A DNA stretch of 64,000 nt, taken from Ignavibacteriota bacterium (GTDB lineage: Bacteria > Bacteroidota > Ignavibacteria > Ignavibacteriales > Melioribacteraceae). Both the position numbers and the translations under genes were made by a program. The stretch covers positions 1 through 64,000 of the forward strand of contig JABFGH010000009.1 in the NCBI GenBank assembly GCA_013112585.1, given 5' to 3'. Shown in pieces: positions 8,637 through 53,660 of the stretch; positions within the stretch are counted from its first letter, which is position 1, and the number at the start of each line of letters is the position of its first letter. Below the pieces are notes generated by a model. It worked only from the letters and a program-made list of their open reading frames with translations. It did no database searches and had not been told where the DNA came from.

Positions 8637-8663
8637 ATTATTATAGAAGCAAAAAATAGTTAA

Positions 8664-9091
8664 CGGACCCGGTTTATAAGCCGAATTCTGTATTCTCTAA
8701 AAAGAGAATGGCAATTATTTGTCTCGATCCTAAATTACTTCAGGACTCCAGCGGTCTACCCGAAGGGACACAAAGCGAACAACCTTGATCCGACGTATCG
8801 GATACCCTTCTTACTTGACCTTGCTCCAGGCGGGGTTTGCAATGATCCCGAAATTCTTCGGGACTCTCTTTAAAGAGACCCCTGGTATTACTACCAGGGC
8901 GGTAGGCTCTTAACCTGCCATTTCACCCTTATCCCGATTGAATCGGGACGGTATTTTTTCTGTTGCACTTTCCGTTACCGATAGCTTTAACCATCGGCAC
9001 CCGGGTGTTACCCGGCACCTTGTTCTGCGGAGTTCGGACTTTCCTCTATTCACGGAATAATCCATTGAATAGCAACTGCCCAACCGGATCC
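8664..9091 (-). ncRNA. rnpB: RNase P RNA (M1 RNA), bacterial class A
   Basis: Read on the minus strand, the RNA begins GGATCCGGTT at 9091 and ends AACCGGGTCC near 8664; these ends pair as a perfect 10-bp P1 helix (with one G-U). Inside are the universal RNase P segments GAGGAAAGTCCGAACTCCGC, followed by ACAAGGTGCCGGGTAAC, then AACGGAAAGTGCAACAG, GGTGAAATGGCAGG, and near the 3' end AGACCGCTGGAGTCC and a 3'-terminal GCTTATAAACCGGG. The length of ~428 nt suits class A. A TATAAT hexamer at 9135-9140 on the minus strand is a candidate -10 box ~45 nt upstream; no clear -35 is seen. No terminator separates it from recJ. Confidence 0.96.
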
Positions 9092-9197: not shown

Positions 9198-9269
9198 ACC
9201 TCACCCTGTGTCCCTCTCCCCAGCCTGTCCGGCAGGCAGGTTGGCAAGGAGAGGGATTTAGGGTGAGGT
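9198..9269. repeat. CCTCACCCT palindrome with a second palindrome inside its loop
   Basis: Arms ACCTCACCCT (9198) and AGGGTGAGGT (ending 9269), plus inner CCCTCTCC/GGAGAGGG, match the element at 19369-19419. Here the loop is enlarged by ~26 nt reading CCTGTCCGGCAGGCAGG, itself palindromic and related to CCTGCC-type repeats at 12481 and 32196. One extragenic palindrome therefore appears to have entered the loop of another. The rest of the 9092-9711 gap holds the hairpin element at 9448-9703 and no gene. Confidence 0.85.
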
Positions 9270-19205: not shown

Positions 19206-19313
19206 GGAAAACTTCGATTTGAAATTCGTAATTCGATATTGGATATTCGTTATTGCCTTATAAATTTTAATATTGAAAATTAAAAACTCAGCTTGTTATA
19301 ACCCTTGTTTGTA

Positions 19314-19419
19314 TCGAGGAATGGTCCTCGACACCCTTGAAGAAAACATTTGAGAAAATCATAAATCAACCTCACCCTCTGTCCCTCTCCTTAAGAAGGA
19401 GAGGGATTTAGGGTGAGGT
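19314..19419. repeat. TCGAGGA hairpin and CCTCACCCT palindrome
   Basis: TCGAGGA (19314) and TCCTCGA (ending 19331) form a 7-bp stem with an ATGG loop. At 19369-19419 ACCTCACCCT pairs with AGGGTGAGGT and CCCTCTCCTT with AAGGAGAGGG; this is the compact form of the element at 9198-9269 and is related to the in-gene copy at 26581-26629. Confidence 0.85.
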
Positions 19420-26398: not shown

Positions 26399-29300
26399 TT
26401 ATTTCAGCAGCAGCATCTTCTTATTAATTTTTACATCACCTGCTTGAAGAGAATAAAAATATACTCCGCTCGAATAAGAGTCGGCATTCCACTCAACTTC
26501 ATAACTGCCCGGTGATTTTTGTTCGTTCACAAGTGTTGCAACTTCGTTACCGAGTATATCGTAAATTTTCAGAGTAACAAACCCCACCCTTACTCCCTCC
26601 CCTTGGTAAGGGGAGGGCTGGGGTGGGGTAGTGAATTTTATTTTTGTGGACGGGTTAAACGGATTAGGGTAATTCTGAGAAAGATAAAATTCAGTCGGCA
26701 AGTTTTCCGAGTCTTCAATTTCAACCGAGGTTGGAACATCAAAAAAATCTATAATTTTGCTCATTAAACTATTTCGGATCTCTTCAGGGTAAATTGTTTC
26801 AAACGGAATACCGAGTGAAATTATTTTTCCCTCAGATGTACCTCCACTAAACATGCCGTTAAAATATGTTCCGGCTCCACCGTAGCTTGCAGCAAATCCA
26901 TCGTACAGAAGACAGAGGCTGCTGCCGTTTATGCCTTTCACTACATCGGGATAATCAACATCAATAGTACCGTGCGTTCCATCATCAAAGGAAAATAACG
27001 GTATGTCATTAAAAGGAGTTCCTGAAATTCCAATTGCATTGTAGTGAGCTCCTGCTGTACCGCCGGGTGCGTCAGCCACATATTCCATCTTCAAAAAATT
27101 GTGGATAAAACTTTTATCACTCGCTGATCCTTTCCAATCCAGGTCCCAGGCAATTTCACTTCCGGATACAAAAAGTTTACCTCCATTCTTCAAATAGTCA
27201 ATGATGATCAGTTGTTCTGCATCGCTGAATGTTTCATCTGCGGTGCTTTCATCTCCGAGTATATAATCAACTGCCGCATAATCTTGCAGATTCACAATTC
27301 CATCCAACACTGCTTCATTCGTTGCCGATTCAAATAATACGCCTTTATTCATCAAAGCTTCGGAATGCTGACGGACGAAGTTATATGTATTTCCTTCCGA
27401 GGGTCTATCGAACCCGTTTACAATTAATATTTTAGTATTGGATTCACCGGCAGTAATAATTGATAACACCTCCGAATCCGGAGAAGTACCGAACGAGTTT
27501 TCGGCAGCAATTTTAATATAGTAATGTCTATTTGCGGGAAGATTTGTAACGCGAATAACATTTGAGTTGCCGACTATAGGCGGATCAAAATTCACTCCGT
27601 CATCACTCGGATAAACAATGTATCTGCTCGCAAAAGGGTCTTCATCAAGAATTACTTTTAACTCATTGTCACCTTCGCTTATTATCCCAAATGATTTTGG
27701 CTTTTGAGGCACAAGGCTGCCGGATGAAATGTAGGTCGGCTGAATCATCACACCTGTTTCATCACTTAAAATTTTATAAAGGTTGGGTGTAGATAAAATC
27801 TCTGCAATATCTTTCACTTCGCCATCCAAAAGAAATTGAGAATTTAAGAATCTTATCCCATGGCTGTAATCAACGTAAGTATTAAAGTGTCCGTTGTATA
27901 AGGGCTGAATCGCAACTCCGTTAAGCCGGTGCCAGCCGTAAATTGTAACATGGTGTGTTCTGCTTGGATCAATTATCTTATTGCTCAGCACAACATCCTT
28001 TTTTGTTCCGCCTGTTAGCTGACCCAGCGCACCGCCTGCACTTACTCTCTGCTGTTCGATTGCTGTGTTGTGTTCAATAAATTTAGGCACCAATTCATTT
28101 TGATTCCCTACCGGTGTATATGTTACCGGGGCTAACTTTATTTCACAATTTGAATAAATATTATTAACAAGTTTTCTTGTAGGCATTACCGCACCGAAAA
28201 GATCAGCTAAATTTTGTGCGGTTATTGGTCCCATTGGAATTCTGCAAAAGTCCTCATCGGAACCGATTGCAAGATAATCGGGCATTACTTCATATTGAAT
28301 TGTGTGGGGTGTTCCGTTCTCATCGTTAAATGATGCTTCAATAGTTGTAAGCTCACGTAAAAAATTCGGTATGTTGCCCGATGAAATTTCATTATAAATT
28401 TCAGTCTCTCTATCAGCAAAGCTCATGTTCATCACACTCTGCATAAATTCTGAGCCTGTCATTGCGTTAGGTGAGCGGGGAGGTATTGCAAGATCATTCA
28501 GATGAACAGCATTTGATTGAATAAAATTAGGATAAGCTCTCTCACCATAATAAGAATAATCAACTCCTTCATCATCTGTCCCGGAAACCATGCCCTGAAT
28601 AAATCCATTTCGCTCAACTTGTACCGTATGAAGAATAGCCTGAGTTGGGTTCTTTTTGAGAATGAATTTTATTCTTCCATCAAGTGCGGTATGCCGAATA
28701 AAATCATTATCCTCTTCGTCAGTAAAAGTAAAACTGCTCGACATATAATTTTTCATTATTCTGCTTCTGTACCAGGTTCCGCCGGTTGGTGAAACGATCG
28801 GCTCACCATTATAAAGAGCAACACTATCATTATAAGCAATAACACTTAAGTAATTATCAGTTGATGCATTAAGCCATTCAATAATTTTATTTCCGTAAGA
28901 ATGCTCGTATCCATAATTGCTATCGAGGAAGGATATTCGTTTAACATAAGCCGGTATTGAAGAAAACGCATCCATGAAACTGAATGTAAATCTGCCGCCG
29001 CCGCTATGCCCGGTTAACACAATAAAGGGATTATAGTCATTGAACAATGATTTTAAATATTCAACCATTCCCTTAATAATTTGTGCATGATCGGAATGTG
29101 CGGCTTTCCAGGCAGGCCAGCTTTTCTGTTCCGTCTCTAGATAAACCGTTACAACATTGTAATCGGTTACATGCTCTCGTAAAAATCTTGTCTGCGCACC
29201 TATGTGCTGAATATCGAAATGCCAATCATCACCCGGTTCCATTATTTTTCCAACAGTTTGCTCAATTGTGTTTCCATTAGGCAGAGCAAATAGTGCAATG

Positions 29301-29509
29301 CCTACAGGTAAAGCAGGATTAAAATCATTTATTGAGGGAGCGTTAATGTGAATTCTAACTTCGGGTTCATAATTGAATGTGATCACTTGTTCATCAAAGT
29401 ATGGACTTACGCTAAATCCGGGTAGAGTTAGACTTTGAGAGTTATTTGATGGAAAAATGAAATTAGAAGATAGAACTAAAAAGAGAAATAAGAGTAGACT
29501 GCTTTTCAT
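26399..29509 (-). CDS. Secreted alpha/beta-hydrolase (esterase-like) with FN3 and T9SS domains
   Basis: 1036 residues with a signal peptide (about 1-24). The N-terminal part is an alpha/beta-hydrolase-like domain with nucleophile motif GHSGGG (S169) after ITGVL-type strands. The middle to ~600 includes further hydrolase or accessory sequence with HHVTIYGWHRLNG. A fibronectin III domain lies about 610-695 (YIKIAAENSFGTSPDSEV). Then ILIVNGFDRPSEGNTY through NGGKLFVSGSEIAWDLD is a glutamine-amidotransferase-like fold of the kind seen beside golvesin/xanthan-lyase proteins. A type A T9SS domain ends the protein (NYPNPFNPSTKIKF to KMLLLK). That domain is split by a 49-bp palindrome encoding PPQPSPYQGEGVRVG. 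The substrate is unknown; it converges on the TonB-type receptor gene, 13 bp away. Confidence 0.78.
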   Translation of the reverse strand: MKSSLLLFLFLVLSSNFIFPSNNSQSLTLPGFSVSPYFDEQVITFNYEPEVRIHINAPSINDFNPALPVGIALFALPNGNTIEQTVGKIMEPGDDWHFDIQHIGAQTRFLREHVTDYNVVTVYLETEQKSWPAWKAAHSDHAQIIKGMVEYLKSLFNDYNPFIVLTGHSGGGRFTFSFMDAFSSIPAYVKRISFLDSNYGYEHSYGNKIIEWLNASTDNYLSVIAYNDSVALYNGEPIVSPTGGTWYRSRIMKNYMSSSFTFTDEEDNDFIRHTALDGRIKFILKKNPTQAILHTVQVERNGFIQGMVSGTDDEGVDYSYYGERAYPNFIQSNAVHLNDLAIPPRSPNAMTGSEFMQSVMNMSFADRETEIYNEISSGNIPNFLRELTTIEASFNDENGTPHTIQYEVMPDYLAIGSDEDFCRIPMGPITAQNLADLFGAVMPTRKLVNNIYSNCEIKLAPVTYTPVGNQNELVPKFIEHNTAIEQQRVSAGGALGQLTGGTKKDVVLSNKIIDPSRTHHVTIYGWHRLNGVAIQPLYNGHFNTYVDYSHGIRFLNSQFLLDGEVKDIAEILSTPNLYKILSDETGVMIQPTYISSGSLVPQKPKSFGIISEGDNELKVILDEDPFASRYIVYPSDDGVNFDPPIVGNSNVIRVTNLPANRHYYIKIAAENSFGTSPDSEVLSIITAGESNTKILIVNGFDRPSEGNTYNFVRQHSEALMNKGVLFESATNEAVLDGIVNLQDYAAVDYILGDESTADETFSDAEQLIIIDYLKNGGKLFVSGSEIAWDLDWKGSASDKSFIHNFLKMEYVADAPGGTAGAHYNAIGISGTPFNDIPLFSFDDGTHGTIDVDYPDVVKGINGSSLCLLYDGFAASYGGAGTYFNGMFSGGTSEGKIISLGIPFETIYPEEIRNSLMSKIIDFFDVPTSVEIEDSENLPTEFYLSQNYPNPFNPSTKIKFTTPPQPSPYQGEGVRVGFVTLKIYDILGNEVATLVNEQKSPGSYEVEWNADSYSSGVYFYSLQAGDVKINKKMLLLK
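26581..26629. repeat. Palindromic repeat inserted in frame within a coding sequence
   Basis: 49 bp with arms ACCCCACCC and GGGTGGGGT and inner arms TCCCTCCCCTT / AAGGGGAGGG. It has the same architecture as the intergenic elements at 9198-9269 and 19369-19419. Read on the minus strand in the host gene's frame it encodes TPPQPSPYQGEGVRVG between IKFT and FVTLKIYD of the T9SS sorting domain. The other sorting domains in this window (for example at 12519 and 32501) run across this point without such an insert. Confidence 0.85.
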
Positions 29510-53535: not shown

Positions 53536-53660
53536 TTTAAAACCGTACACCACGGCGTATAAATTAAAACGGTTGTACTATTATTAAGTCATTATTAACC
53601 CACGACTTAAGTCGTGGGTTAATAGAAATAGAGAGACTACCCATAACGGTTTTAACCGTT
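53536..53660. repeat. Palindrome cluster after the CPBP gene
   Basis: A perfect 28-bp palindrome TTAACCCACGACTT/AAGTCGTGGGTTAA (53595-53622) is followed by AACGGTT-TT-AACCGTT (53645-53660), and preceded by AAACCGT and related AAAACGG sequences. The spacing of hairpins and a loosely similar linker (ATTATTAAGTCATTATTAA against ATTATAACAGCAATTATT) suggest a distant relative of the multi-hairpin repeat, again downstream of a stop codon. Confidence 0.7.

Follow-up and report, generated by a model that had tools for sequence, protein, structure and literature searches.

In Rickettsia, palindromic elements are described that lie in frame within translated genes and add a short peptide to the product (Ogata 2002; Claverie and Ogata 2003, both as cited in PMC3733652). 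REPs tagged with GTAG or CGTC are short interspersed palindromes that are mostly intergenic and sometimes found in genes (Di Nocera 2013, PMC3733652); in recB, two Xanthomonas species have different REPs at roughly the same position, the nearest precedent for a site shared between repeats (PMC3733652). For the CTD of T9SS cargo proteins, passages of PMC11285876 name loop Lbeta3-beta4 and the C-terminus as the essential motifs. According to the same passages, the other loops differ greatly in length; Lbeta2-beta3 is variable, and in the mirolase CTD it bears a 13-residue appendage.

The palindrome studied here lies in frame in a T9SS tail, in a window of 64,000 nucleotides (the whole stretch of DNA that was analyzed) from the 4.94-Mb genome of an Ignavibacteria-related bacterium. 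The features concerned are as follows:

26581..26629, minus strand: two-stem palindrome of 49 bp, in frame in a T9SS tail (covariance model, 69.7 bits; fold z-score -4.4)
26582..26626, minus strand: codons of PPQPSPYQGEGVRVG, residues 962-976, placed in loop Lbeta2-beta3 of the sorting domain by translation and AlphaFold model
26411..26671, minus strand: T9SS type A sorting domain (Por_Secre_tail), from profile matches
26399..29509, minus strand: host gene, 1036 aa, a T9SS cargo, from the open frame and orthologues
9198..9269, no strand assigned: non-coding member of this palindrome family, whose loop contains a second, nested palindrome, CCTGTCCGGCAGGCAGG (covariance model, fold)
19369..19419, no strand assigned: non-coding copy of the same palindrome family (covariance model, fold)

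Read on the minus strand, the palindrome at 26581-26629 is ACCCCACCCCAGCCCTCCCCTTACCAAGGGGAGGGAGTAAGGGTGGGGT. Folded as DNA it reaches -20.7 kcal/mol, where shuffled sequences average -11.4 (z = -4.4), and none of 200 shuffles equals it, which rules out a chance palindrome. Both other elements (9198-9269 and 19369-19419) share its two-stem design (fold z-scores of -6.3 and -8.1), and the boundaries drawn by the covariance model are exactly those of the three elements. Sequence, fold z-scores, and covariance model thus agree with the initial annotation, which had recognized a 49-bp palindrome built like the two others. No Rfam model matches at 26581 at the gathering score; the sole match in the window is a bacterial RNase P class A RNA gene at 8661-9091 (minus strand), with the 9198 palindrome ~100 nt upstream.

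Further palindromes were observed alongside this family. The CCTGTCCGGCAGGCAGG palindrome of the 9198 copy is also nested in the family's loop in two T9SS tails (C3:97651 and C7:42290; L001:1501-1544 and L003:1501-1544). There its codons read QPVRQAG, so that one repeat lies within another and both lie within a protein. The TCGAGGAATGGTCCTCGA palindrome at 19310-19340 adjoins the 19369 element and matches palindromes flanking two Y1 transposase genes (L055 and L056), so it is probably a separate, RAYT-linked REP. A perfect inverted repeat, TATTAACCCACGACTT/AAGTCGTGGGTTAATA, at 53593-53624 recurs at L133:9027-9056 and represents another interspersed family.

The host tail scores 33.2 bits with PF18962 (cut-off 27) and 30.6 bits with TIGR04183 (cut-off 23) over residues 947-1033 of 1036, and the genome encodes the T9SS sortase PorU (NF033707, 990.8 bits; cut-off 420). 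An AlphaFold model (108 residues, from an alignment of 82 tails) has seven strands at a mean pLDDT of 86, the seven-stranded Ig-like beta-sandwich of a T9SS type A sorting domain. A PDB search with the model returned Ig-like domains, including PorZ (5m11) and the mirolase CTD (8qb1), at modest TM-scores of ~0.5-0.6. The insert, residues 34-48 of the model, is flanked by strands 26-33 and 48-56 and has lower confidence. In alignment, the YDILGNE segment corresponds to FDMNGRR of RgpB, a stretch that the excerpted text of PMC11285876 assigns to loop Lbeta3-beta4 and describes as required for secretion. By alignment and model, the insert therefore falls in the preceding loop, Lbeta2-beta3, adjoining the essential Lbeta3-beta4 motif. 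In the predicted protein it would form an extended surface loop on the secretion signal, and we propose no new activity for it.

The loop is 19 aa long in the window tail; the commonest length in this genome is 8 aa, found in 96 of the 122 distinct tails collected after dropping duplicated flanks (the genome holds at least 150 T9SS tails). A turn of ~5 codons has thus been replaced, for a net gain of 11 codons. The initial annotation had about 15 residues simply added between beta strands: the reading frame, the peptide PPQPSPYQGEGVRVG, and the position between two strands of the model are as it described, but the size of the gain is not.

A strict pattern finds 18 copies of the family genome-wide (0 for the reversed control pattern), and the covariance model finds 21: nine in frame in T9SS tails, two in decayed tails, and 10 non-coding, outside convincing genes. 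The nine in-frame copies belong to nine different tails and lie at one position, between the segments KF(T/S)(IP) and (V/I)TLK(V/I)YD, with identical orientation and phase; every in-frame copy in this genome is thus in one loop of one domain family. The two further copies (C17:25444 and C8:121832) occupy the same loop position, but their tails are disrupted by stops or frameshifts. In this genome the CCCC-type subfamily, to which the window copy belongs, is confined to tails and tail remnants (C9:26581, C9:97665, C12:151698, C17:25444, and C8:121832), which makes another tail the more likely immediate donor of the window copy. That the repeat family can enter coding DNA and is tolerated in a loop of the sorting domain, as initially proposed, is supported at the level of sequence by the nine copies at one loop. 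The proposal that an extragenic palindrome had become protein is right as to the in-frame palindrome but too narrow, since there are at least nine intact and two decayed insertions, several families are involved, and a tail is the likelier donor.

Palindromes unrelated to this family are found among the longer loops of the same genome, GTAGGGACAAGTCGCGACTTGTC, GTAGAGACGTTTGGAAAAACGTCTC, and GAACGAAAATTTTCGTTC among others. Both exact genomic copies of GTAGGGACAAGTCGCGACTTGTC are in tail loops. Some tail-loop palindromes of this genome or its relatives (GTAGGGACAAGTCGCGACTTGTC, GTAGAGACGTTT, and GTAGCACAGAAT) have GTAG at their foot. By shuffle test, five of the 18 other long loops here are palindromic at p <= 0.05 and three at p <= 0.01, compared with four of 95 short loops and three of 122 control coding windows; loops are therefore not always lengthened by a palindrome. 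One T9SS cargo gene cluster (L117; G000:C6:195065-208290) has tails with several loop types: a GTAGGG palindrome, AACGAAAATTTTCGTT, the 26581 family, and long loops that are not palindromic.

The covariance model has matches in 20 of 38 related genomes (its own included), several of them at the same tail loop in other genera and families. Genome G017 has a different, GTAG-tagged repeat (GTAGCACAGAAT...ATTCTGTGC; 19 exact copies, five in tail loops), and G016 has a CCCCCC repeat, TCCCCCCTTTGCTAAAGGGGGGA, in three tails. We also scanned ~85,000 genomes across GTDB for the tail motif and then for this kind of palindrome, with no open frame required downstream. The 72 stretches found, in ~32 assemblies, come from Ignavibacteria-type or unclassified Bacteroidetes MAGs, the exception being one non-tail chance match titled Anaerolineaceae. 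With the loci collected earlier there are 83 cases. Most of the genomes are metagenome assemblies, but an assembly or contamination artefact is unlikely, given that many contigs and ~32 independent assemblies show the arrangement. The in-frame tails have the palindrome in each of its three phases (42, 21, and 11 tails), and the frame is kept in ~80 of 82 tails (p ~1e-35 against an expectation of one third, although the tails are not independent). When the apparently broken cases were inspected, L277 and L278 were the only ones in which the frame is convincingly lost; L271 and L314 are cut by the ends of their loci. Frame retention is not built into this result, because the scan imposed no downstream open frame.

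Loop contents differ between orthologous tails. The closest orthologues of the window gene, in G017 and G013 (both 63% identical), have, respectively, a GCACAGAACATTATTCTGTGC palindrome in the loop and no insert; in G014 (59%) the tail is broken upstream of the loop; of two orthologues in G030 (both 56%), that on C24 has a related 49-mer whose 3' junction differs, and that on C112 has no palindrome. Vertical inheritance of the palindrome in the window gene is not supported by this distribution. An insert shared without palindromy, the observation named in the initial annotation as contrary to its reading, was not found among the orthologues compared (63-56% identity). In the G014 orthologue (L181), a sequence with CCCGCC/GGCGGG arms splits NYPNP from FNP and brings in an early stop, apparently a palindrome that destroyed a tail. 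Two orthologues have short tandem repeats around the loop and no palindrome (TTATCAGTTATCAGC in L190 and GTATAAGGTATCAAGTAT in L182).

A BNR-type protein provides closer comparisons: L340 carries the 26581 kind of palindrome, L341 (77%) another, and L342 and L343 (76-77%) GTCACTCTTCGACAGGCTCAGAGTGAC, so that orthologues 76-77% identical in protein have three different palindromes at the loop. More distant homologues have GTCATTCTGAGCGAAGCGAAGAATCTC, GTCACCCTGAGCGAAGTCGAAGGGTCAC, or nothing there. We found no pair of close strains in which one has the site empty; the nearest relatives are other genera, and insertion has thus never been seen directly.

Within a genome, inserts of the same class have a synonymous codon identity of 0.89-0.94, while their flanks beyond four codons have 0.43-0.69 and the insert-free background 0.42-0.48. 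In the four codons nearest the insert, identity is mostly raised, which fits a short co-copied patch or a target-sequence preference alike. Near-identical inserts between flanks that are synonymously saturated beyond ~12 nt make duplication of whole tails unlikely. They bear directly on the idea that a palindrome was gained once and that the loaded tails were then multiplied by gene or domain duplication. This would explain why, within a genome, copies mostly agree in phase and sequence class, and why loaded tails share some amino-acid features (KIKF, LKVYDILGNE). However, the flanks largely refute it, most of the loaded host proteins are not close paralogues of each other, and three phases and unrelated palindromes demand many origins; we consider such a history highly improbable.

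Among 31 aligned inserts, two stem positions change jointly on both sides (in 11 and 14 sequences), giving a covariation score of 0.111 against 0.073 when shuffled; none of 500 shuffles, nor any slid register, scores as high, although the inserts are related and their count is not one of independent events. The paired changes indicate that the nucleic-acid structure has been maintained even though the DNA codes for protein. Such retention of palindromy could mean that the loop is useful, its peptides or hairpins being selected, for example, for secretion-tag diversity or for stabilization of the mRNA 3' end. We think this very unlikely: most tails in this genome have the short loop, loop contents are replaced from one orthologue to another, the reading frame and the peptide are arbitrary, and paired changes are expected also if distinct mobile subfamilies are copied.

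The family does not appear to be a REP driven by a RAYT. Eight Y1_Tnp genes are present in the genome, and their neighborhoods hold other palindromes or none, never the 26581 family. Four Y1 (RAYT-like) transposase genes (L049-L052; G000 C25, C24, C13, and C1) each lie amid their own palindromes (CCCCGCCATnnATGGCGGGG, CTATGGATnnnATCCATAG, CCAATGGTTnnAACCATTGG, and CAACTGCnnnGCAGTTG), which points to several separate REP/RAYT systems in one genome.

One way for one loop to accumulate such repeats would be tolerance: insertion is random, and coding copies are purged except in a dispensable loop that is present in hundreds of copies. Perfect stems of at least 9 bp and at least 40% GC occur at 2.9 per kb in tail loops, 0.53 in non-coding DNA, and 0.004 in other coding DNA, densities taken from ~0.53 Mb of sampled regions that were partly chosen for holding tails or copies of the window's family. 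With that family left out, there are three loop palindromes in 3.5 kb, while 463 kb of other coding DNA contain two, of which the first (L120:863) may lie just beyond a tail. The near absence of such palindromes from other coding DNA is what tolerance predicts, as are the strongly kept frame and the use of the loop by several unrelated families, and Lbeta2-beta3 is, in passages of PMC11285876, naturally variable and not a known essential motif. Tolerance also predicts, however, that loops should be no denser in palindromes than non-coding DNA. If the 21 copies of the 26581 family had landed evenly on ~600 kb of non-coding DNA (an extrapolated figure) and ~6 kb of loops, ~0.2 would be expected in loops; instead, there are 9-11 in the loops and 10 in the non-coding DNA (binomial p ~1e-13). 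Moreover, copies within one genome have one phase and near-identical sequence. Tolerance alone is insufficient for the excess, and as the whole explanation we find it doubtful; tail-to-tail copying after a few captures could account for the excess.

The account that we favor, and consider probable, is that the beta2-beta3 turn of T9SS type A tails is a recurrent landing site for palindromes in this order: rare capture in a dispensable turn, followed by short-patch or element-driven copying, with the frame under selection. A palindromic repeat would first enter the turn of one of the at least 150 tails, replacing ~3-5 codons; the outcome of this step is visible in the tails, its mechanism is not. 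The insert would survive because Lbeta2-beta3 is not among the two CTD motifs shown to be essential elsewhere and because the frame is kept. Other tails of the genome, although already diverged, then show near-identical copies at this loop with only ~12 nt of flank, a pattern that may have arisen through short-patch gene conversion, template switching between tails, or an element that inserts with a flank preference. Finally, turnover of the loop contents would leave orthologous tails with different palindromes. It is also conceivable, but in our judgment unlikely, that a lineage of mobile palindromes targets the beta2-beta3 turn: the element or its mover would recognize the DNA of the turn and preferentially insert into it, and tail-adapted variants, with an internal spacing suited to the reading frame, would spread between tails and genera.

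Recurrent capture and copying at one loop would amount to a rare replicated natural experiment, in which a single homologous site has received many insertions, in three frames, and insert-free paralogues serve as controls. Questions that become testable are how REP-like repeats select targets and spread, and where the T9SS signal may vary. There is also reason for caution in annotation: where predicted proteins contain peptides such as PSPYQGEG and PLLSKERG, these are DNA repeats read through in translation, not conserved protein motifs.

Our search of open-access full text for palindromes in connection with T9SS or Ignavibacteria found no description of this arrangement. As with the Rickettsia elements, the 26581 palindrome is in frame inside a predicted protein gene; but those elements are reported, in the text cited, from many unrelated genes and positions, whereas here one homologous loop takes several palindrome families in three phases. 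Some of the other tail-loop palindromes resemble GTAG REPs in the tag at their foot, whereas the 26581 family ends in ACCTCACC.../...GGTGAGGT, lacks the tag, and has no linked Y1 (tyrosine) transposase here. Of its 21 interspersed copies, only 10 lie outside tails and tail remnants. The shared site in recB is one gene, and the shared site here is a domain loop in hundreds of genes. Nematomorph mitochondria likewise have inverted repeats inside protein-coding genes (PMC6649704), but these are long perfect repeats, and the abstract does not describe a shared domain loop. The CTD loop variation of PMC11285876 concerns the same variable loop, and in the excerpted text it is described in protein terms, with no palindromic-repeat origin reported. 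Palindromic repeats are regarded as extragenic with scattered exceptions; here a secretion-tag loop in hundreds of genes per genome gathers unrelated families across an order. In-frame palindromes and intragenic REPs are already known, and what is new is the reuse of one domain loop across many genes and genera, by several repeat families, and in three phases.
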